Of a stretch of DNA of 64,000 nt, positions 10,340 to 63,646 are shown piece after piece (within the stretch, counting starts at the first letter, position 1; the number at the start of each line of letters is the position of its first letter). Made by a program: the position numbers and the translations under genes. Source of the stretch: Bacillus sp. SB49. Lineage in GTDB: Bacteria; Bacillota; Bacilli; Bacillales; Halobacillaceae. The stretch covers positions 3,013,501 through 3,077,500 of the forward strand of contig NZ_CP048117.1 of assembly GCF_000469135.2 (NCBI RefSeq), in the 5' to 3' direction. The notes beneath the pieces are model-generated. The model saw only the letters and a program-made list of their open reading frames with translations. It was not told the origin of the DNA and searched no databases.

Positions 10340-10750
10340 TCAGGCCAGTTTCCATGCTGGAATAAGCGAGTGGAATCGGAAGAAATAACTCATCGGGATG
10401 TGGATGGCCGTGTAGACAGCGAGTGTAAGTCCGTAAGCAAGAAGCCACTGCGGCACAGCTGCACCAAGAAAGACGTAAAGCAAAAGCATGCCTGCAGGAA
10501 ACGGCACCAATACGATCAACCACATCGGACTTCCCACGGCTTCCGTCAATGCACCCAGCGTGACGACCGAAAATCCGATGATCAAAGCCTGCCAAAACGG
10601 CAGCCCGTGGCTGAGCAGGAAACCGGCAATATAGTAAGAGCACCCGGTTAATGCGATGGCTAAAGTAAAATCAAAAAAATACTTCACGGTTTTCCCAACT
10701 CTCTTTCCATTAAAAAATAGTGCCCCATTTCTTTCAGGCAATAACACCAC
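10340..10750 (-). CDS. Hypothetical membrane protein (up to 136 residues)
   Basis: Four hydrophobic segments cover most of the protein, including ALIIGFSVVTLGALTEAVGS and WLIVLVPFPAGMLLLYVFLGA. The family is not recognised. The start is uncertain: tandem GTG codons at 10750 follow AAGG, but an internal GTG before KYFFDFT would also work, leaving about 116 residues. Confidence 0.65.
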   Translation of the reverse strand: MVLLPERNGALFFNGKRVGKTVKYFFDFTLAIALTGCSYYIAGFLLSHGLPFWQALIIGFSVVTLGALTEAVGSPMWLIVLVPFPAGMLLLYVFLGAAVPQWLLAYGLTLAVYTAIHIPMSYFFRFHSLIPAWKLA

Positions 10751-10756
10751 CTTGAC

Positions 10757-11152
10757 TTAAGAAAGATTCAACTGCCAGGAAACGCCGTGACGATCGTTGA
10801 CCCAGCCGTATTTCCTGCTGAATCCATGGTTGCCAAGCTCCATCAGCGCCTGGCCGCCCTCGACGAGCGCCCGGTACAGCCGGTCGATCTCCTCCTCTGA
10901 ATCACATTCCACAAATATGGAAGATGACGGGGTGAAGTGAAAGGCATGTTCAATCGGACTGTCGAAGCAGCGGAATTGCTGCCCTTTCAGAGAAAAGACG
11001 CCGGCCTTGACGCTTCCTTCCGGGGCCCCTTCATCCGATCCGAAATGGACGATGCTTTCTATTTCGGCATCTTCGAACAACAACGCATAAAAGGACATCG
11101 CTTCTTCTGCATCTCCGTTCTGAAACATTAAAAACGGGGTGACTTTATTCAC
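10757..11152 (-). CDS. VOC family protein of the PhnB/3-demethylubiquinone methyltransferase-like type
   Basis: A 131-residue PhnB-like protein: the N-terminal KVTPFLMFQNGDAEEAMSFY, the central GQQFRCFDSP strand and the C-terminal YGWVNDRHGVSWQL are diagnostic. Despite the old family name, enzymatic activity is usually unproven. It ends 7 bp before the next gene on the same strand. Confidence 0.9.
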   Translation of the reverse strand: MNKVTPFLMFQNGDAEEAMSFYALLFEDAEIESIVHFGSDEGAPEGSVKAGVFSLKGQQFRCFDSPIEHAFHFTPSSSIFVECDSEEEIDRLYRALVEGGQALMELGNHGFSRKYGWVNDRHGVSWQLNLS

Positions 11153-11270
11153 TATGAACCAACTCCCTTCCGACTCTACTCCTTAAATTCCACAAACCTG
11201 GAAGAATTCCTTCTCCTATAGATACATAGTCCATATATTGGTAAACTCAGAGAAGAAGGAGGTTGGTACT

Positions 11271-11432
11271 ATGAGTGTCCAGGAATGGATGCCGCTGATC
11301 ATTTGGTTCATCTATCTGGTGATCTTCGCTGCTGTAGTAACCGGAATCTTTGTCTTTATCAAGCTGTTGAAATCAAAGAGCTCTTCTGCACATCCGGTGG
11401 AGGAAGCCGGAACAAAAAGGGGAACCGATTAA
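11271..11432 (+). CDS. Small single-helix membrane protein (53 residues)
   Basis: It has one transmembrane segment (residues about 7-32) followed by a Lys/Ser-rich cytoplasmic tail. The ATG at 11271 follows AGAAGGAGG; an in-frame start at 11238 lacks such a site. Function unknown. Confidence 0.65.
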   Translation: MSVQEWMPLIIWFIYLVIFAAVVTGIFVFIKLLKSKSSSAHPVEEAGTKRGTD

Positions 11433-11520
11433 CCCCCGTCTGCCTCCTGCAAGCCTTATGGAGGAAGTAAGGATAAGAAAATGGAATAAAGATAGAATTA
11501 TTAAATCACAGGAGATAATC

Positions 11521-12309
11521 ATGCCAAAAACACTTCCAGAAAACGATGCACTACTCCCGGCAGCCATTGGTCTATTCTTCACGGCCATACTGCTGTTATC
11601 CTGCCGACTCTATCTCTACGGTGCAGGAATCCTTGTACTTTTGATTCTTCTTTATACTTTTTCACGCCGGCATCGTCCGGTACTGTCCCTGTTCATTGGA
11701 TTCCTGACAGGAACGGCCCTTTACCAAGCATCCAGTGACTTTCTTTTTGCTTTCTGGGACGTTACTAAGGAGTGGAAGGTCATTGGAAACCGGAGCTTCC
11801 TTCTGTTCATATTGGCCGGTTCCCTCCTGGCCATCCGCTTCTCCGGACAGAAGGCTTCGTTCTTTGCAAAAGCTCCCGACTGGAGAAAGCGGATCGTCAT
11901 GCCCAACCACACGGTTCCATTGCCGCTCTTTTTGACATTCGGCCTTATCGGATCGGTGTCTATATTCCTTCCCCTGCTGTTTACCGACGGAGCTTACCCC
12001 CGTTCCCTTTTGCTTTACGGGCTGGTATTTTCCCTGTTAAACGCATCTCTGGAGGAGTTTCTCTGGCGGGGCGTTCTGCTTGATTATCTTCAAAAGAATC
12101 TCTCGACAGTTCATGCCGTGATCATCACAAGTATCGGCTTCGGGCTGCTTCACGTCTCTATCGGCATCCCGCTCGTCTTCAGCCTGCTGTTTTCCTTCGG
12201 CGGCCTCTTTTATGCCTGGGTCGTTCTGAAAACGGACAGCATCTACCCCGCCGTCTTTTTTCACTTTCTCATTAATATGGGGATGGTCCTCAACGGATGG
12301 ATCTTTTAA
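11521..12309 (+). CDS. CPBP family intramembrane glutamic endopeptidase
   Basis: A polytopic Abi/CaaX-like protease of about 262 residues. The three signature elements are present: LEEFLWRGVLL (E-E-x3-R, near residue 177), FGLLHVSIG with the second active-site His, and HFLINMG near the C-terminus. Members cleave prenylated or membrane peptides, or confer self-immunity; the substrate here is unknown. The ATG at 11521 has CAGGAG eight bases upstream. Confidence 0.88.
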   Translation: MPKTLPENDALLPAAIGLFFTAILLLSCRLYLYGAGILVLLILLYTFSRRHRPVLSLFIGFLTGTALYQASSDFLFAFWDVTKEWKVIGNRSFLLFILAGSLLAIRFSGQKASFFAKAPDWRKRIVMPNHTVPLPLFLTFGLIGSVSIFLPLLFTDGAYPRSLLLYGLVFSLLNASLEEFLWRGVLLDYLQKNLSTVHAVIITSIGFGLLHVSIGIPLVFSLLFSFGGLFYAWVVLKTDSIYPAVFFHFLINMGMVLNGWIF

Positions 12310-12313
12310 TAGA

Positions 12314-12352
12314 AAAAAAGCCGGGAACTCTATAGGAGCTCCCCGCTTTTCC
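12314..12352. terminator. Bidirectional terminator between CPBP and DinB genes
   Basis: An imperfect stem AAAAAGC-GGG-CTC/GAG-CCC-GCTTTT has A- and T-rich flanks and lies between two convergent genes. Confidence 0.8.
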
Positions 12353-12811
12353 TTATTCTGCAGTCGTTGCTTTCAGTGCTTTGATCGTACCTGTATGTAC
12401 CCCTTCATGGTACAACGTGAAGTTCAGGATCTCTCCGACCGTCGGAAGGCCCAGGAAGGCTTTCGCCGCTTCGTCTTCCAACTGTCCGGCTAAGGCTTGT
12501 TCCAGTTTCTTCGGCTGTTCCTCCAATGCCTGCTTCAATTCTGTAAGCGTCGGAACGTCGCCCTGCCAGTCTGCCGGTTTCGTTCCCGGTGCGAACAGCT
12601 CCAAATAACGGGATGGTGTTTCCACCGGCTTGCCTCCGAATCGTTCTACGAGAGAATTTTGGACGACAAGGATGTGTCCGAGGTTCCAGCGGATCGTGTT
12701 GCTGAATCCTCCCGGCTGTTTGTCTGCCTGCTCTTCCGTAACGCCGTCCATTTCCTTCAGCGTCGCCTGCCTGACCATATTAATCTGTGTGAAAATCTGT
12801 TTTTCGTTCAT
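12353..12811 (-). CDS. DinB family protein
   Basis: A 152-residue four-helix-bundle protein of the DinB/YfiT superfamily. Putative metal ligands are His in NLGHILVVQ (about 47) and the paired His in LYHEGVHTG (about 135 and 139). Relatives are thiol transferases or metal-binding stress proteins; the activity here is unknown. The start follows GAAGGGAGTGG. Confidence 0.87.
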   Translation of the reverse strand: MNEKQIFTQINMVRQATLKEMDGVTEEQADKQPGGFSNTIRWNLGHILVVQNSLVERFGGKPVETPSRYLELFAPGTKPADWQGDVPTLTELKQALEEQPKKLEQALAGQLEDEAAKAFLGLPTVGEILNFTLYHEGVHTGTIKALKATTAE

Positions 12812-12895
12812 ATGAATCCACTCCCTTCTTTTCTCTTATTCTAGCTTGCCCGATTCCCTGCCTCAAACCATCCGTCTCGTGTTTCCCATTTTTAA

Positions 12896-12930
12896 GAAAA
12901 AAGACCCGCTATCAAATACGGATCGGGTCC
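12896..12930 (-). terminator. Terminator overlapping the 3' end of the esterase gene
   Basis: The stem GGACCCG/CGGGTCT on the minus strand is followed by six T residues. The 5' arm lies within the last codons of the esterase gene. Confidence 0.7.
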
Positions 12931-13877
12931 ATGTGGAGAACGGTCTGCAGAACCTCTGTCATTTCCTCAAGCGCCTCTCTCGCTCGATCGACCCTGCCGA
13001 TCATATTAATAAAGCTGTGCACGAGGTCATCATAATGAAGGTGACGCACCACACCTCCCGCTTCTTTCAGACGCTCCGCATAGGAAAAACCTTCATCCCG
13101 GAGCGGATCGTAAGCTGCCGTTACGAGTAAAAGCGGTGGAAGACCGGTCACATCCAACGCCCGAAGCGGGGAGACGAAGACCTCCCCGCCGTCTTCCTCC
13201 TCTTTCAAATAATGTCCGAAAAACCATTCCATTTTTTCCTTCGTCAAATTGTACGCATAACCGGCTTGGTAAGAAGAGGTGTCGAACCGGTAGTCGAGGA
13301 CGGGAGTGATCAGAAATTGGTAAGTGATTTCTATATCCGCTCTGTCTTTAAAGTAAAGGGAAACAGCGGCTGCGAGGTTTCCACCGGAGCTTTCACCTCC
13401 TACGGCAATTCTTTCCGGATCGACATGCCATCGCGATGCCTCCGCCGTCATCCATTCTACGCCGTCCACGGCATCATGGAAGGCCGCAGGATAGGGATGC
13501 TCTGGAGCGAGACGGTAACCGACCGAAACAACCACCACCTGAGCCCGGCTGGAAAGATAACGGCACACATTGTCCGCGCTGTCGATATCCCCGAACACCC
13601 AGCCTCCTCCATGGAAATATACAAGGGCGGGGTGGGGACCTTCGTTCTCGGGTGTATAAATTCGGACAGGGATCTCGTTCCCGGATCGGTTTACAAACGA
13701 CGTTTCTTCCACCGATGCACCGACCACCGGAAGTGCGGTAAAAAACTCACGAGCAACTTGGTAGTACTCTCTGGACTCCCCCGGACTCAGGCGATCAAGG
13801 GACGGATGTTCCAGTTCTTTCATCCGTGCCCCGATGCTATTCAACAGGTCCAACACCTGCGGATCGACTGGTTTCAT
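12912..13877 (-). CDS. Alpha/beta hydrolase, hormone-sensitive-lipase (acetyl esterase) family
   Basis: A 321-residue esterase of the HSL/Aes family. The oxyanion motif HGGGWVFGD is near residue 89, the nucleophile elbow GESSGG near 163, the acid in YDPLRDEG near 262, and the catalytic His in DDLVHSF near 292. It overlaps the upstream acetyltransferase gene by four bases (ATGA), so it is translationally coupled and shares its Fur box. The context suggests an iron-linked role such as siderophore ester processing, which is inference; a general carboxylesterase is the alternative. Confidence 0.9.
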   Translation of the reverse strand: MKPVDPQVLDLLNSIGARMKELEHPSLDRLSPGESREYYQVAREFFTALPVVGASVEETSFVNRSGNEIPVRIYTPENEGPHPALVYFHGGGWVFGDIDSADNVCRYLSSRAQVVVVSVGYRLAPEHPYPAAFHDAVDGVEWMTAEASRWHVDPERIAVGGESSGGNLAAAVSLYFKDRADIEITYQFLITPVLDYRFDTSSYQAGYAYNLTKEKMEWFFGHYLKEEEDGGEVFVSPLRALDVTGLPPLLLVTAAYDPLRDEGFSYAERLKEAGGVVRHLHYDDLVHSFINMIGRVDRAREALEEMTEVLQTVLHMDPIRI

Positions 13878-14494
13878 GATAGAATCCCCCCTGCCTTGGA
13901 TGTCATCCTCTGCATCGGTTCCACGACGACTTGATGATCGGCCAACGACTTTTCAAACGCCGCTTTCTCCCCTTGAATCAGCGTCGCTTCCTTCCCTGGA
14001 AGGTCGATATGTCCAAGCACCTCGCCGCCGATCTGCTTCAGAATCGGCAGGATGATCCGGTTTCTTCGGTCCGGCTCCCCGATGATTCGATGCGCATCAT
14101 ACGTGTCGAAAAGAAAGTAAATCATCGCTCTGATCAGGCCGAGACCGTCTGCTTTGTTCAACAGCGGCCGGGGCCCGATCAGCAGATGCATTCCCAAGTC
14201 CTTTTCCTGATGATCATAATACTCACGGATCGGATCTTTCCTGATATCATAAGCAATGACATACGTGACCGGCTCCCCGTTGCAGGTGCCGATGTAGCAA
14301 TCCTTATGTTCTGCTTTCAGGGAATTCTCTACCCATTCCGTCAATTTCTCTTTCGAAACGTCGAGCTTCCAGAACGGTGCAATATGCTTTTGATGCATCC
14401 ATGTATGTAAAAGGTCTGCGTCCCCGATTTCAAGCGGTCGGAACGCAAAACGGCGGCTCTTATCTTCTTCTACTATCCTGAATTCTGTCTTCAT
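13874..14494 (-). CDS. GNAT acetyltransferase of the siderophore-biosynthesis (IucB/RhbD-like) type
   Basis: A 206-residue protein matching the Acetyltransf_8 branch of GNAT enzymes, which acetylate N-hydroxylated diamines in hydroxamate siderophore assembly: FRPLEIGDADLLHTWMHQKHIAPFW at the N-terminus, LGMHLLIGPRPLLNKADGL in the acetyl-CoA site, and EPDRRNRIILPILKQIGGE. The ATG at 14494 follows GATAGGGGGATAAG; the longer TTG-initiated frame would run through the Fur box. No siderophore synthetase lies nearby, so the gene is an orphan. Some homologues modify aminoglycosides or lysine instead. Confidence 0.86.
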   Translation of the reverse strand: MKTEFRIVEEDKSRRFAFRPLEIGDADLLHTWMHQKHIAPFWKLDVSKEKLTEWVENSLKAEHKDCYIGTCNGEPVTYVIAYDIRKDPIREYYDHQEKDLGMHLLIGPRPLLNKADGLGLIRAMIYFLFDTYDAHRIIGEPDRRNRIILPILKQIGGEVLGHIDLPGKEATLIQGEKAAFEKSLADHQVVVEPMQRMTSKAGGILS

Positions 14495-57734: not shown

Positions 57735-58931
57735 TTATCCCACGTTCTGACCGGGTACTGGAACATCCTCTTGTTTATCTTTTTTCATAAGCTTATCAGC
57801 AATGGCAGTAATTGCTCCATCGCCCGTAACGTTCGTTGCGGTACCGAAGCTGTCTTGAGCCAGGTAGAGAGCAATAATTAAAGAGACCATGGTGGAATTA
57901 AATCCTAACATCGATTCGAGAAGGCCGATGGCTGCCATGACCGCTCCGCCAGGTACACCCGGGGCGGCAATCATCGTAATTCCTACCATCAGTATGAACG
58001 GGAATACGTCTGCGAATGTGGTTGCTTGTCCTTGCATATACATAACCGCCATGGCACAGCTGGTAATCGTGATCGCACTTCCTGCCAAATGGACATTAGC
58101 AAGTAACGGCACAGCAAAGTCTGCTACACGTTCCCGTACCCCGATTTTCTTCACGTGCTTTAATGTGACGGGAATCGTAGCCGCAGAAGACTGCGTTCCA
58201 AGCGCTGTAAAGTAGGCAGGCGTCATTACTTTCAATAAGCGGAATGGATTCCTGCCATGCATACTGCCTGCAATACAATACATGACTACAAGATAAAGCA
58301 AGTGCAGCGATATGATCATCAAGAACACTTTCGCGAATACACTCAAGATTGTCCCTACTTGTCCTGCATACGTCATATTCGCGAAGATTCCGAATATATG
58401 AAACGGTAATAGAGGAATGATGATGTTCTTTATTACTTTCTGGATAATGGAGCGGAATTCATTCATGACTTGTAATAAATAATCCCCTTTAACAGCCGTC
58501 ATTCCTACTCCTAACAGGAAAGATAATATAAGTGCGGCCATTACGCCCATAATGGGAGTCATTTCAACGGAAAAAGGTGCTTCCACCAGCGATTCTTCCG
58601 GATTAGCAAAGGATTCTCCACTTTGCCCTTGCAAAAAGGATGGGTACAGATTCTTAGCAAACAAAAAAGCCACCGTACCCGCCAGGACCGTAGAGGCATA
58701 GGCTAATCCAGTCGTCAGACCAAGCATCTTTCCTGCGCCTCTTCCCATGGACGCGATGCCGGGAGCAATAAAACCGAGAATGATTAACGGGATGACAAAG
58801 CTCAGAAAGTTACCGAATAAACCTGTAAATGTTGCAGCAATTTCAATAAGGATTTCTGGTGCAAATTGCCCTATCACGATACCTAGAGCGATCGCAAGAA
58901 CAATCCTTAACAACAATGGTATTTTTTTCAT
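57735..58931 (-). CDS. Dicarboxylate/amino-acid:cation symporter (DAACS family)
   Basis: A 398-residue carrier with the DAACS pattern: SFVIPLIILGFIAPGIASM near the N-terminus, the Ser-rich TALGTQSSAATIPVT loop (HP1), GSAITITSCAMAVMY (TM7), GVPGGAVMAA (HP2) and FGTATNVTGDGAIT (TM8). Glutamate, aspartate or serine with Na+ or H+ are the usual substrates. The start follows GGAGGAAGGAAGAGG. Confidence 0.93.
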   Translation of the reverse strand: MKKIPLLLRIVLAIALGIVIGQFAPEILIEIAATFTGLFGNFLSFVIPLIILGFIAPGIASMGRGAGKMLGLTTGLAYASTVLAGTVAFLFAKNLYPSFLQGQSGESFANPEESLVEAPFSVEMTPIMGVMAALILSFLLGVGMTAVKGDYLLQVMNEFRSIIQKVIKNIIIPLLPFHIFGIFANMTYAGQVGTILSVFAKVFLMIISLHLLYLVVMYCIAGSMHGRNPFRLLKVMTPAYFTALGTQSSAATIPVTLKHVKKIGVRERVADFAVPLLANVHLAGSAITITSCAMAVMYMQGQATTFADVFPFILMVGITMIAAPGVPGGAVMAAIGLLESMLGFNSTMVSLIIALYLAQDSFGTATNVTGDGAITAIADKLMKKDKQEDVPVPGQNVG

Positions 58932-61021: not shown

Positions 61022-61052
61022 TGTACATGTAACTGCATGATTTACATGTACA
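61022..61052. promoter_or_regulatory. Inverted repeat TGTACATGTAA-N9-TTACATGTACA upstream of the Rrf2 gene
   Basis: Perfect 11-bp arms end 20 bp before the start codon, so the regulator probably binds here to repress itself. Confidence 0.78.
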
Positions 61053-61072
61053 AAAGTAAGGATGGTGACCAG

Positions 61073-61522
61073 ATGTCCATCAGCAGCAGATTTTCCGTCG
61101 GCATTCATGTGCTGGCTCTGATTGAAATAAATAAAGATGGAATAAGTTCTTCTGAATATTTAGCTGGAAGTGTGAACACGAACCCAGCCGTAATCAGAAA
61201 AATCATGGGCATGCTTAGAAAAGCAGGATTAATAAAAGTACAGCCGGGTATTGCAGGAGCAGAACTGGCGAAAGATTTATCAGAGATCACCTTGCTGGAT
61301 GTTTATAAAGCCGTAGATGTTGTCAAAGACAAGGAACTCTTCAGCATACACGGAAATCCAAGTCCTGATTGTACCGTCGGAAGGAATATCCAACATACTA
61401 TCGAACCACTCTTCAGCAGTGCTCAACGTGCAATGGAGAAGGTGCTTGAAGCTGTCACCATTGAAGATGTGGTAAAGGATATTCAAGACAAAGAAAAAGG
61501 TAATGATGAAAACAAAATATAA
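61073..61522 (+). CDS. Rrf2 family transcriptional regulator (YwnA-like)
   Basis: A 149-residue winged-helix regulator: SSEYLAGSVNTNPAVIRKIMGMLRKAGLIK is the HTH region, followed by the wing VQPGIAGAELAK. The iron-sulfur cysteine triplet of IscR/NsrR is missing (one Cys only), as in YwnA. The ATG at 61073 follows AAGGATGGTGA. Confidence 0.9.
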   Translation: MSISSRFSVGIHVLALIEINKDGISSSEYLAGSVNTNPAVIRKIMGMLRKAGLIKVQPGIAGAELAKDLSEITLLDVYKAVDVVKDKELFSIHGNPSPDCTVGRNIQHTIEPLFSSAQRAMEKVLEAVTIEDVVKDIQDKEKGNDENKI

Positions 61523-61559
61523 AAAAGGACATTCCCTTTTCCAGGAATGTCCTTTTTTT
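61521..61559 (+). terminator. Terminator after the Rrf2 gene
   Basis: The stem AAAAAAGGACATTCC/GGAATGTCCTTTTTT with an eight-base loop is a strong bidirectional terminator between convergent genes. Confidence 0.92.
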
Positions 61560-61598: not shown

Positions 61599-63152
61599 TT
61601 ACCCTATCTTATGCGATTTCTCCTCGGACTCCCCCTGCGAGGACGCTCTGATATTCGACAGCACCTCACGAGTGGAATCACTGATTTCCGCTTCAAAGTA
61701 CGGCTCGTAAGCTTCCAAAGGAGCCCTTTTCGTCGAGTAAACCGCAATCAGTACACCAATGAGGGATGCTGCAACGGCGATGACAAAAGGCAGCTCGTAT
61801 CCTAAGGCCTTCGCCGCGATATAAACGAGAGAGCCGATAATGATACCGGCATAAGCACCGGCCCGGTTCATCCGCTTCCAGTACAGACCTAAGAATACGA
61901 CGAGGAAGAAGGCGGCGCCGAATCCTCCGTATACGTAGACAAAGCCCATTGCCAAAAACCACGGTGGATTGATCGCTAACAGAACAGCCACGGCGGCGAT
62001 CCCGAATATACTCAGGCGGAGCCAGTTCTTGAACTTCTTCTCACTGATCTTCTTCGGAGCTATGTTCAAGTACACATCATAATAAAGAGACGTAGCGCAG
62101 TGCAGGAGCATAGAGTTGGCCGTCGATATAGCCGCTGCACAAATAGCTACCAGGGTAATGGCACCGATAATCGGCGGCGTGTACTCCTGAATGACCAAAG
62201 GAATGATATAATCGGTCGTCTTTCCGACCGGTATGCTGGGTACAAGAACTTTCGCCCCGAGACCGATGACGATCAGCGGCCCCATGATGAAGATCAACAC
62301 GACGATCGTACCTACGACCTGCAAAATCGCCACTTTCACGTTTTGAGGCGCCAGCATCCTTGTGACCCAGTGCGGGGAAGAAGGCGTCCCTAAAGAGTTC
62401 GAAATAAAAATGGACAGCAGGGCCCCGATACCGAAGGTCCCGAACGGGGAAAGCAGGATACCCTCTTCAAGGTCCGGTCCGCCGACGTTTGTCGGAGCGG
62501 TTATCGTCGCAAGCGTGTCCAGGATACTGCCGATTCCACCCGTTAACGACCATACGACACCGCCCGCAAGCAGGACGCCGATCGTAATGAGGATCGTGTT
62601 CACCGTATCTGTCGCTGCCACCGACCAAAATCCACCTACACTGGTAATGATAATAAATAATAAGAATCCAAAGATTGCGAGTTTGTAATCAATGCCTGTA
62701 ATACTGGAAAACACAATACCGAAACCAGTCACCTGAATATTGACGAGAAGCAAATAACCGATAAACATAAGAATGCCGACAATCGCCTGCAGAGCACTCT
62801 TGTTCTCAAACGGCTCGAACCGATGCCGGATGAATTCCGGAAACGTCCTGGCCGGCTTTTCCGGTCGTCTAATTTTGTACGCGACGATCGGGATCAAGGC
62901 ACCGCCGAAGCACCAGCCCGCGACCCAGCCGATGACAGCTGCGACACCGGAGCTGTACAAATAACCAGGGACCCCGATGACAGAAGCCACACTGACCCAC
63001 GTCGCTGCCGTGGTACCGATACCAAGAAGCAGCCCCATCCTATGCCCTCCGGTTGTATAATCATCGATCGACTCTGCTTTTTTCAAACTTTTTATATTCG
63101 CCCATACTAGAAAAAGCACATAAAAACTAAATACGACTACATACCATATCAT
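61599..63152 (-). CDS. Sodium:solute symporter (SSS family), probably a methionine-related transporter
   Basis: A 517-residue, about 13-helix SSS carrier: DDYTTGGHRMGLLLGIGTTAATWVSVASVIGVPG at the N-terminus (helices 1-2 with the Na+ site), GRPTXSSP-like LGTPSSPHWVTRM, and AICAAAISTANSMLLH near residue 340 (TM8 Na+ site). The gene follows a tiny membrane protein and an S-box riboswitch, so I infer that the substrate is methionine or a precursor. The substrate itself is not readable from sequence. The start is ATG 63152. Confidence 0.88.
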   Translation of the reverse strand: MIWYVVVFSFYVLFLVWANIKSLKKAESIDDYTTGGHRMGLLLGIGTTAATWVSVASVIGVPGYLYSSGVAAVIGWVAGWCFGGALIPIVAYKIRRPEKPARTFPEFIRHRFEPFENKSALQAIVGILMFIGYLLLVNIQVTGFGIVFSSITGIDYKLAIFGFLLFIIITSVGGFWSVAATDTVNTILITIGVLLAGGVVWSLTGGIGSILDTLATITAPTNVGGPDLEEGILLSPFGTFGIGALLSIFISNSLGTPSSPHWVTRMLAPQNVKVAILQVVGTIVVLIFIMGPLIVIGLGAKVLVPSIPVGKTTDYIIPLVIQEYTPPIIGAITLVAICAAAISTANSMLLHCATSLYYDVYLNIAPKKISEKKFKNWLRLSIFGIAAVAVLLAINPPWFLAMGFVYVYGGFGAAFFLVVFLGLYWKRMNRAGAYAGIIIGSLVYIAAKALGYELPFVIAVAASLIGVLIAVYSTKRAPLEAYEPYFEAEISDSTREVLSNIRASSQGESEEKSHKIG

Positions 63153-63176
63153 TTGTCAGCAACTTCCTTCCCCACT

Positions 63177-63311
63177 TCATTTATACTTGAACAGTTTCCC
63201 TGTAGCTCCCCACCGTTTCACTCCTGATTTCTCCACTTTGTAACAGAGAAAGGTGCCTAACAGGAAGGAGAAAATCATCGTTCCCACCCACACCATCATC
63301 GCTATGAACAT
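63177..63311 (-). CDS. Tiny membrane partner of the SSS symporter (44 residues)
   Basis: One N-terminal hydrophobic segment (FIAMMVWVGTMIFSFLLGTFL) and a basic tail. The ATG at 63311 is six bases after AGAGGAGG; longer frames have poorer spacing. It lies 24 bp upstream of the SSS gene and downstream of the riboswitch, in the place of the small accessory subunits seen with other symporters. Confidence 0.68.
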   Translation of the reverse strand: MFIAMMVWVGTMIFSFLLGTFLCYKVEKSGVKRWGATGKLFKYK

Positions 63312-63379
63312 CGCCATCCTCCTCTTCATCCTTTTATGGAACCACTTGAAGCGATCATCAGCCCCTTTTTTGAAAAAAA

Positions 63380-63415
63380 TAAAAAACCCTTCACTCACTA
63401 AGAGAAAAGGGTTTC
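63380..63415 (-). terminator. S-box riboswitch terminator
   Basis: The stem AAACCCTT/AAGGGTTT is followed on the minus strand by TTTTTTATTTTTTT. It is the expression platform of the SAM riboswitch. Confidence 0.85.
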
Positions 63416-63442
63416 GCACAACCGTATCGGGCTGCTGCTTGT

Positions 63443-63553
63443 CCTCTCATCTTCGGAATGACTTTCGCCTTCCACTGAAATTGGCACCGTGCATGCATCT
63501 GCCGGTTGCCGAGGCTTCACAGGGTCAGTCCCTCTGCCTCTCTCGATAAGAAA
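63443..63553 (-). ncRNA. SAM-I (S-box) riboswitch upstream of a symporter operon
   Basis: On the minus strand the element reads CTTATCGAGAG (P1 and P2 5' side), GAGGGACTGACCC, GAAGCCTCGGCAACC, GGTGCCAATTTC, and closes with GATGAGAGG, which pairs with the opening CTTATC. These conserved segments and their order match the S-box consensus. The aptamer precedes an intrinsic terminator, so when SAM is bound the terminator forms and the operon is switched off. Confidence 0.92.
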
Positions 63554-63646
63554 ATTCAAAATATTCGATTGGTAATAGATTTCATTCTACCACATACCGC
63601 CGTTTCGTCAATTCCCTTCGTCACGAACCTCTCTAAGCTGGAGCCT

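Follow-up and report, generated by a model that had tools for sequence, protein, structure and literature searches.

In the S-box mechanism, binding of SAM lets a terminator form and turns the downstream genes off, while a shortage of SAM keeps the terminator arm sequestered, so that transcription goes on. The transporters known from S-box regulons (MetNPQ, NhaC-type carriers, MmuP) are importers preceded by a SAM-I aptamer, and carriers of these kinds are present in the genome studied here; the operon described below shares this leader with them and differs in that its carrier belongs to the SSS (sodium:solute symporter) family and is accompanied by a micro-protein. A methionine carrier with a small membrane subunit also has a precedent in MetPS of Corynebacterium, a methionine/alanine importer whose carrier is, however, of the NSS and not the SSS family; the family of the MetPS small subunit is not among the 15 Pfam families matched at E <= 1 by any of 40 members of our micro-protein. 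Small membrane proteins also include the DUF3311 proteins. Within the SSS family, the closest parallel is the pyruvate symporter MctP, which has a DUF3311 gene beside it, both being down in an rpuS mutant according to the portion of the paper used here (PMC9100948). The likeness lies in a small-protein gene adjoining an SSS carrier gene; the differences are that our micro-protein falls in no Pfam or NCBIfam family and that our symporter is of another subfamily (27.4 bits against the MctP model, for a cut-off of 625).

The sequence-only reading of this locus held that SSS carriers are not the standard methionine transporters of this bacterial group, and the literature agrees as far as it was covered: the main text of a review on microbial methionine transporters (PMC8140960) has no match for sodium, symporter, SSS or riboswitch, and the portion used of an SSS review (PMC7918813) has none for methionine, riboswitch or accessory. 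Among the matches listed, we found no report of an SSS carrier under a SAM riboswitch in open-access titles and the starts of abstracts, a scope that leaves aside supplementary regulon tables (PMC3766115).

The window, that is, the whole stretch of 64,000 nucleotides that was analysed, belongs to the one-contig, 3.77-Mb genome of a halophilic bacterium. The operon and its signals are as follows.

63584-63611, minus strand: promoter-like site TTGACG-16 nt-TAGAAT, 10 of 12 consensus positions, with TG preceding the second hexamer
63444-63552, minus strand: SAM-I (S-box) riboswitch aptamer, RF00162, 80.7 bits
63380-63413, minus strand: intrinsic terminator of the riboswitch (expression platform), a hairpin of -14.0 kcal/mol followed by 6 T
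63177-63311, minus strand: 44-aa membrane protein with one hydrophobic stretch and the C-terminal motif VEKSGVKRWGATGKLFKYK, a conserved partner without Pfam or NCBIfam family
61599-63152, minus strand: SSS (sodium:solute symporter) carrier of 517 aa, PF00474, with Na2-site residues aligned to SiaT
61521-61558, minus strand: terminator closing the two-gene operon, a 16-pair stem with a T-rich tail

This layout is the one proposed from the letters alone (aptamer and terminator, then the small membrane protein, then the symporter), and it holds. The covariance model confirms that the S-box aptamer is complete, with a score well above the gathering score of 44.4 (E 2e-17) and all 108 model positions (1-108) covered; it is the sole Rfam match at the gathering threshold in the window. 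As three promoter-like sites occur in 2.5 kb against 2.7 expected in shuffles, the one thing that speaks for the listed site is its position upstream of the aptamer. The terminator stem starts 30 nt past the aptamer and its T-run 57 nt past it; a terminator-type platform was found in all 10 leaders compared, with the T-run 57-61 nt past the aptamer. An antiterminator made of the 3' P1 strand and the terminator arm can pair in 10/10 leaders, in 8 of them no better than shuffled arms and clearly better only in L016 (10/500) and L087 (15/500). The two ORFs are separated by 24 nt. Outside the riboswitch operon, the window holds a sodium:dicarboxylate-type symporter (PF00375) at 57735-58931 and, at 61037-61522, a regulator of the Rrf2 family in convergent orientation.

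The symporter operon is one of 13 SAM riboswitch sites in the host genome, the other 12 of which precede methionine and sulfur genes. Downstream genes above an NCBIfam cut-off are those for a metI-type PLP enzyme, mmuP, msrA, a metY-type gene (subfamily model), cysH and a metE-like synthase; metE, metK, two metN genes and a homocysteine-methyltransferase-like gene after mmuP were recognised by reading of translations, as was a TauE-like permease that matched no NCBIfam model, and a NhaC-type carrier scored 96.8 bits, below the cut-off of 370. The site belongs to an ordinary methionine regulon that already holds several importers under SAM riboswitches, namely two MetN-type carriers, the NhaC-type carrier and MmuP. 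The likelihood of S-methylmethionine as the substrate is weakened by the fact that mmuP (737 bits vs 716) and the homocysteine-methyltransferase-like gene have a SAM riboswitch of their own.

We then compared the SAM-regulated genes of four genomes with the symporter (G000, G004, G006 and G008) and two without it (G005 and G009), using 59 regions of five genomes and 12 sites of the window's own genome; at each site the comparison took in the first long downstream ORF alone, and the symporter sites and genomes G003, G007, G014, G019 and G021 were left out. No SAM-regulated gene, hence no candidate partner enzyme, was common to the four bearers and lacking in the two non-bearers, which is what one would expect of a substrate that feeds into existing metabolism. 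metE and a metE-like gene come under SAM control in three of the bearers but in neither genome without the symporter; msrA does so in all six. In the genome of the window, SAM-controlled msrA is followed after 62 nt by a gene for an EutH-like permease (L101:279-1954, that is, C1:815678-817353; best score 313 bits for the part scanned, below cut-offs).

Of the 44 family genomes, 15 carry a close homolog of the symporter; identity is 86-100% for nine of these and 64-65% for the remaining six. A SAM aptamer lies upstream of all nine close orthologs and of none of the six distant ones; it also precedes the symporter of Lentibacillus kapialis (L087), a protein of 78% identity. When a model made from 16 aptamers was run over 56 loci (L044-L099), it gave eight matches at E <= 0.1, seven of them before the symporter (L045-L050, which are six of the nine close orthologs, and L087) and one before a metK-like gene (L089). 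The recurrence of the arrangement in 9/9 close orthologs and L087 exceeds chance. Conservation of the riboswitch in relatives, put forward earlier as a check on the locus, thus stands for this small set and fails for the six distant homologs and for other relatives, which lack the aptamer.

In a tree of 50 symporter sequences (L089 and L099 left out), the SAM riboswitch is confined to nine rows. Fourteen rows form one group (support 100/98), made of the Neobacillus/Bacillus sequences L051-L053 and an 11-member subgroup (support 100/100) that joins the nine SAM-controlled rows to L092/L093, from another family. L092/L093 are 77% and L051-L053 about 71% identical to the window symporter; at these nearest relatives outside the SAM rows no riboswitch was found. 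L092/L093 have no degenerate riboswitch either, the stop in L093 is the natural end of the gene and not the mark of a pseudogene, and both loci adjoin genes for an Fnr-like regulator and a molybdo-oxidoreductase, as judged from their translations. The SAM label needs two changes on the tree, and a single clade is not rejected (p-AU 0.32). The riboswitch at the symporter is a late addition.

The neighbourhood of the other relatives is of a different kind. A cluster gene of the BKACE family (PF05853) lies near the symporter in at least 27 of 47 named homologous loci, as does, again in at least 27/47, a gene of the ketopantoate-reductase family; both counts are undercounts in GC-rich loci, where ORF choice took antisense frames. 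BKACE-type loci often add an SDR gene and a TrmB-like or sigma-54-dependent regulator, and on a Paracoccus denitrificans plasmid (megaplasmid; L044, record 10534-14097) the symporter, the ketopantoate-reductase-family gene and BKACE stand in a row. No gene of either family was seen beside the fourteen grouped rows, for which the neighbourhoods covered are those of ten named loci, L104/L105 and the window, L020 being covered over 4.5 kb only. Neobacillus niacini MER TA 87 carries one symporter of each type (L052, L072). As for the chemistry of these operons, query position 14 is Gln in the BKACE of L057, whereas the lysine-fermentation enzyme carries Glu there. The usual carnitine-dehydrogenase operon, with carnitine as substrate, is unsupported, the dehydrogenase being of the ketopantoate-reductase family; AraC-type regulators beside some proteobacterial copies do not look, by reading only, like the GATase kind. 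The group of fourteen would have left the BKACE/ketopantoate-reductase-family operons, and the SAM riboswitch would have been gained in Halobacillus, Thalassobacillus and Lentibacillus.

The micro-protein is the better-supported new fact of this analysis. Upstream of the symporter, each of the 47 named loci encodes a protein of 41-62 residues; 40 of these loci come from a scripted search (finding 50 of its 57 loci) and seven from separate output (L060, L070, L071, L073, L074, L075 and L091). These loci span Bacillota, Alpha-, Beta- and Gammaproteobacteria (Pseudomonadota), deltaproteobacterial bins and Actinomycetota; the gap to the start of the symporter match runs from -4 to 176 nt, and the tail of the protein reads I/V-E-x2-G/K-V/L-K/R-R-x-G. 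The window micro-protein matched no Pfam or NCBIfam family, and 40 members searched against both libraries gave no family and scattered matches only (best E 0.0084-0.56). Among the 44 family genomes, the micro-protein is found at E <= 1.1e-22 in exactly the 15 that carry a symporter homolog; the other 29 have no strong match and two weak ones at E 0.006-0.008. Among 397 genomes of the order, it is present in 11/11 with the symporter (ten at E <= 2.7e-22, G183 at 1.6e-5), and the other 386 give three weak matches (G123, G272 and G313), which we rejected as true copies, no SSS gene lying beside them. The co-occurrence is significant in the family (Fisher p 4e-12) and in the order (4e-19), both values being uncorrected for kinship. 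One has to keep in mind that the query alignment was built from symporter loci, some of them in these very genomes, so that presence is partly by construction and the telling part is absence elsewhere.

The protein is also under purifying selection: in eight group A copies, 61% of the synonymous sites differ but 6% of the nonsynonymous ones (pN/pS 0.105, 8 sequences). We conclude that the micro-protein is a true partner of the symporter subfamily, as the sequence-only reading had supposed for its small accessory protein, and we infer that it binds the carrier. It would form one helix with a basic, conserved and probably cytoplasmic C-terminal tail, and would act as an obligate subunit or as an assembly or stability factor, since it is present with the symporter subfamily wherever examined. 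It is very unlikely that the small ORF is a translational leader, a coupling peptide for the symporter rather than a subunit: it is short and upstream, at 24 nt here, and the cbrX-cbrA pair, where a small ORF couples translation of an SLC5-type sensor (PMC9100948, in the portion used), is a precedent, but conservation at the amino-acid level across phyla despite gaps of -4 to 176 nt, the low pN/pS and the conserved C-terminal motif argue against such a role. As the micro-protein is common to the whole symporter subfamily, it is uninformative about methionine. For Paracoccus denitrificans plasmid 1, the gene table, itself incomplete, shows no feature at its ORF (L044:9806-9937). A distant symporter, 45% identical, goes with a diverged micro-protein of 53-56 aa in G183 (L099/L116), next to acyl-CoA-dehydrogenase- and SDR-like genes recognised by reading of translations.

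The symporter itself matches PF00474 at 156.7 bits (cut-off 22.8) and just misses TIGR00813, the NCBI model of the SSS superfamily (181.2 vs 184). It passes no NCBIfam cut-off: besides MctP, the scores and cut-offs are 157.7/515.5 for PutP, 157.1/328 for PanF and 41.4/750 for ActP. We placed its residues on SiaT through a HMMER alignment and took the residue roles from the portion used of PMC5931594. S343 and T344 (TM8) align with SiaT S342/S343 and form a predicted Na2 site, in which S343 is invariant in 43 rows and position 344 is T or S. The optional Na3 site of SiaT (Asp182, Ser/Thr345, Ser/Thr346) is not reproduced, N346 replacing Ser345; D182 and S347 are invariant in the 43 aligned rows. 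S54 and S57 hardly vary among 43 sequences and are aligned with Ser60 and Thr63, the residues by which SiaT binds the carboxylate of sialic acid (PMC5931594, same portion), a match that fits a carboxylate substrate without naming it. The symporter thus resembles SiaT in the Na2 site, in Ser at both carboxylate-binding positions and in Asp182, and departs from it at Arg135 (Tyr133), Gln82 (Trp80) and the Na3 residue Ser345 (Asn346), and its substrate would be expected to differ from that of SiaT.

Eleven positions (32, 81, 134, 136, 138, 139, 167, 201, 290, 392 and 405) hold one residue in nine SAM-clade rows and another in 36 other rows, these being the rows outside the fourteen-row group of the tree; six further positions (30, 84, 142, 203, 256 and 258) have no residue common to the two sets. 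Positions 81-84 come after the residue aligned with the substrate-binding Gln82 (TM2), and positions 134-142 after the one aligned with Arg135 (TM3). This proximity to pocket residues of SiaT suggests that the substrate may have changed, with the caution that a compact clade has such fixed positions anyway; positions 84, 136, 139 and 290 are already altered in the five rows that have neither operon genes nor riboswitch.

What, then, does the carrier import? We think it probable, and the best explanation of the locus, that the two genes form an operon encoding a sodium-driven importer that serves the cell at times of SAM, and so of methionine, shortage. By analogy with described S-box leaders, SAM binding would let the terminator form and turn both genes off, and low SAM would leave the terminator arm sequestered, so that micro-protein and symporter are transcribed; the carrier would then bring in, with Na+, a small carboxylate feeding methionine and SAM. 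Methionine itself is a tentative candidate for this substrate, somewhat short of an even chance, and the same degree of belief goes to a methionine precursor or a sulfur- or methyl-bearing analogue. That the carrier is a methionine (or precursor) importer is our best guess and not an assignment, drawn from SAM control only. The importer proposed by the sequence-only reading is sound as a hypothesis, which has gained a conserved riboswitch and a true partner protein, but it is too narrow: from the SAM riboswitch one can read the conditions under which the carrier is needed, not the identity of its substrate. The riboswitch is limited to a small group, and other relatives sit with BKACE and ketopantoate-reductase-family genes. 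Points that weigh against our explanation are the restriction of the riboswitch to nine of 50 tree rows, its absence at L092/L093 and L051-L053, the Tyr133 that stands in for SiaT Arg135, an antiterminator pairing that does no better than shuffled arms in 8 of 10 leaders, and the SAM regulation of metE and the metE-like gene in three bearers and neither non-bearer.

A sub-case of this explanation, plain methionine import by an extra Na+-driven carrier suited to high-salt habitats, is possible without being the outcome we would predict. It draws on the S-box control and on the finding that no SAM-regulated gene tracks the symporter across four bearers and two non-bearers, but the carriers already in the regulon (two MetN-type, NhaC-type, MmuP) would make it redundant, which counts against the methionine-importer reading, and the SSS relatives examined have no methionine link. 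Many relatives lie in catabolic operons without visible tie to sulfur, which also weighs against import for methionine supply. In another reading, the carrier has kept the substrate that its relatives in operons take up, a beta-hydroxy or beta-keto acid (e.g., a carnitine-like or sulfonium zwitterion) processed by BKACE and the ketopantoate-reductase-family dehydrogenase, and SAM control reflects the use of this compound as a methyl or sulfur donor and not methionine uptake. We hold this to be unlikely: the frequency of BKACE and ketopantoate-reductase-family genes (each in at least 27/47 loci), their consecutive order with the symporter in Paracoccus denitrificans and a second SSS carrier, whose operon with acetoacetate-CoA ligase and thiolase-like genes is also preceded by SAM riboswitches, are in its favour, but the 11 positions fixed in the SAM clade, several of them beside SiaT pocket residues, suggest a changed substrate, and no BKACE neighbour was seen at the SAM-controlled copies. 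Whichever substrate applies, a sodium-coupled SSS carrier is placed in the SAM regulon, and SAM control offers a clue to the substrate of a widespread SSS subfamily for which no substrate-specific NCBIfam model reaches its cut-off. Added to this is a conserved micro-protein, about 44 residues long, for which the Pfam and NCBIfam libraries searched have no entry; should the carrier need it as a subunit, the pair would extend the short list of SSS carriers known to have small partners.

The least expected lead points to two entries of SSS carriers into the SAM regulon. The second carrier (499 aa, 25% identical to the window symporter) has homologs at E <= 1e-150 in 23 of the 44 family genomes and is collinear with a gene for acetoacetate-CoA ligase (TIGR01217, 697 bits vs 521) in 17/44; judged by position, each of these 17 has a SAM aptamer a short way upstream. 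In G036, a homolog with one internal stop lies directly behind a SAM aptamer, also by position. The operon comprises genes for a thiolase (in five of the six loci read, absent in L180), acetoacetate-CoA ligase, an SCP2-thiolase-like protein, a protein of ~140 aa without NCBIfam match and the SSS carrier, and complete aptamers occur in tandem in all six loci read (L179-L184); an example is given below.

L181, 193-297 and 364-471: tandem SAM aptamers of the second-carrier operon
L181, 543-6835: genes of the second-carrier operon

The window genome has neither the second carrier nor the ligase at the thresholds used. Both operon types are found together in G004 only, and between them they cover 25/44 genomes; an overlap of at most one genome has P = 0.06, uncorrected for kinship. 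There is no obvious reason for SAM control of acetoacetate-type metabolism. Since the second operon and the relatives of the first carrier both deal in beta-keto-acid chemistry, one might speculate, as a long shot, that halophilic Bacillaceae brought the two SSS carriers into their SAM regulon in separate events and that both import beta-hydroxy or beta-keto acids, perhaps sulfonium compounds such as gonyol, as a sulfur or methyl source for methionine. If they do, they would make up a route to methionine not recognised before, in which one carrier has a subunit from an unclassified micro-protein family. SAM aptamers in tandem, spaced by a few hundred bases, also precede metN-type genes in several genomes of the same genus, the 13 SAM sites of the window genome including no such tandem: they lie at C20:79048/79365 in G004, C1:2890304/2890571 in G006, C13:17629/18027 in G008 and C7:143114/143381 in G009.
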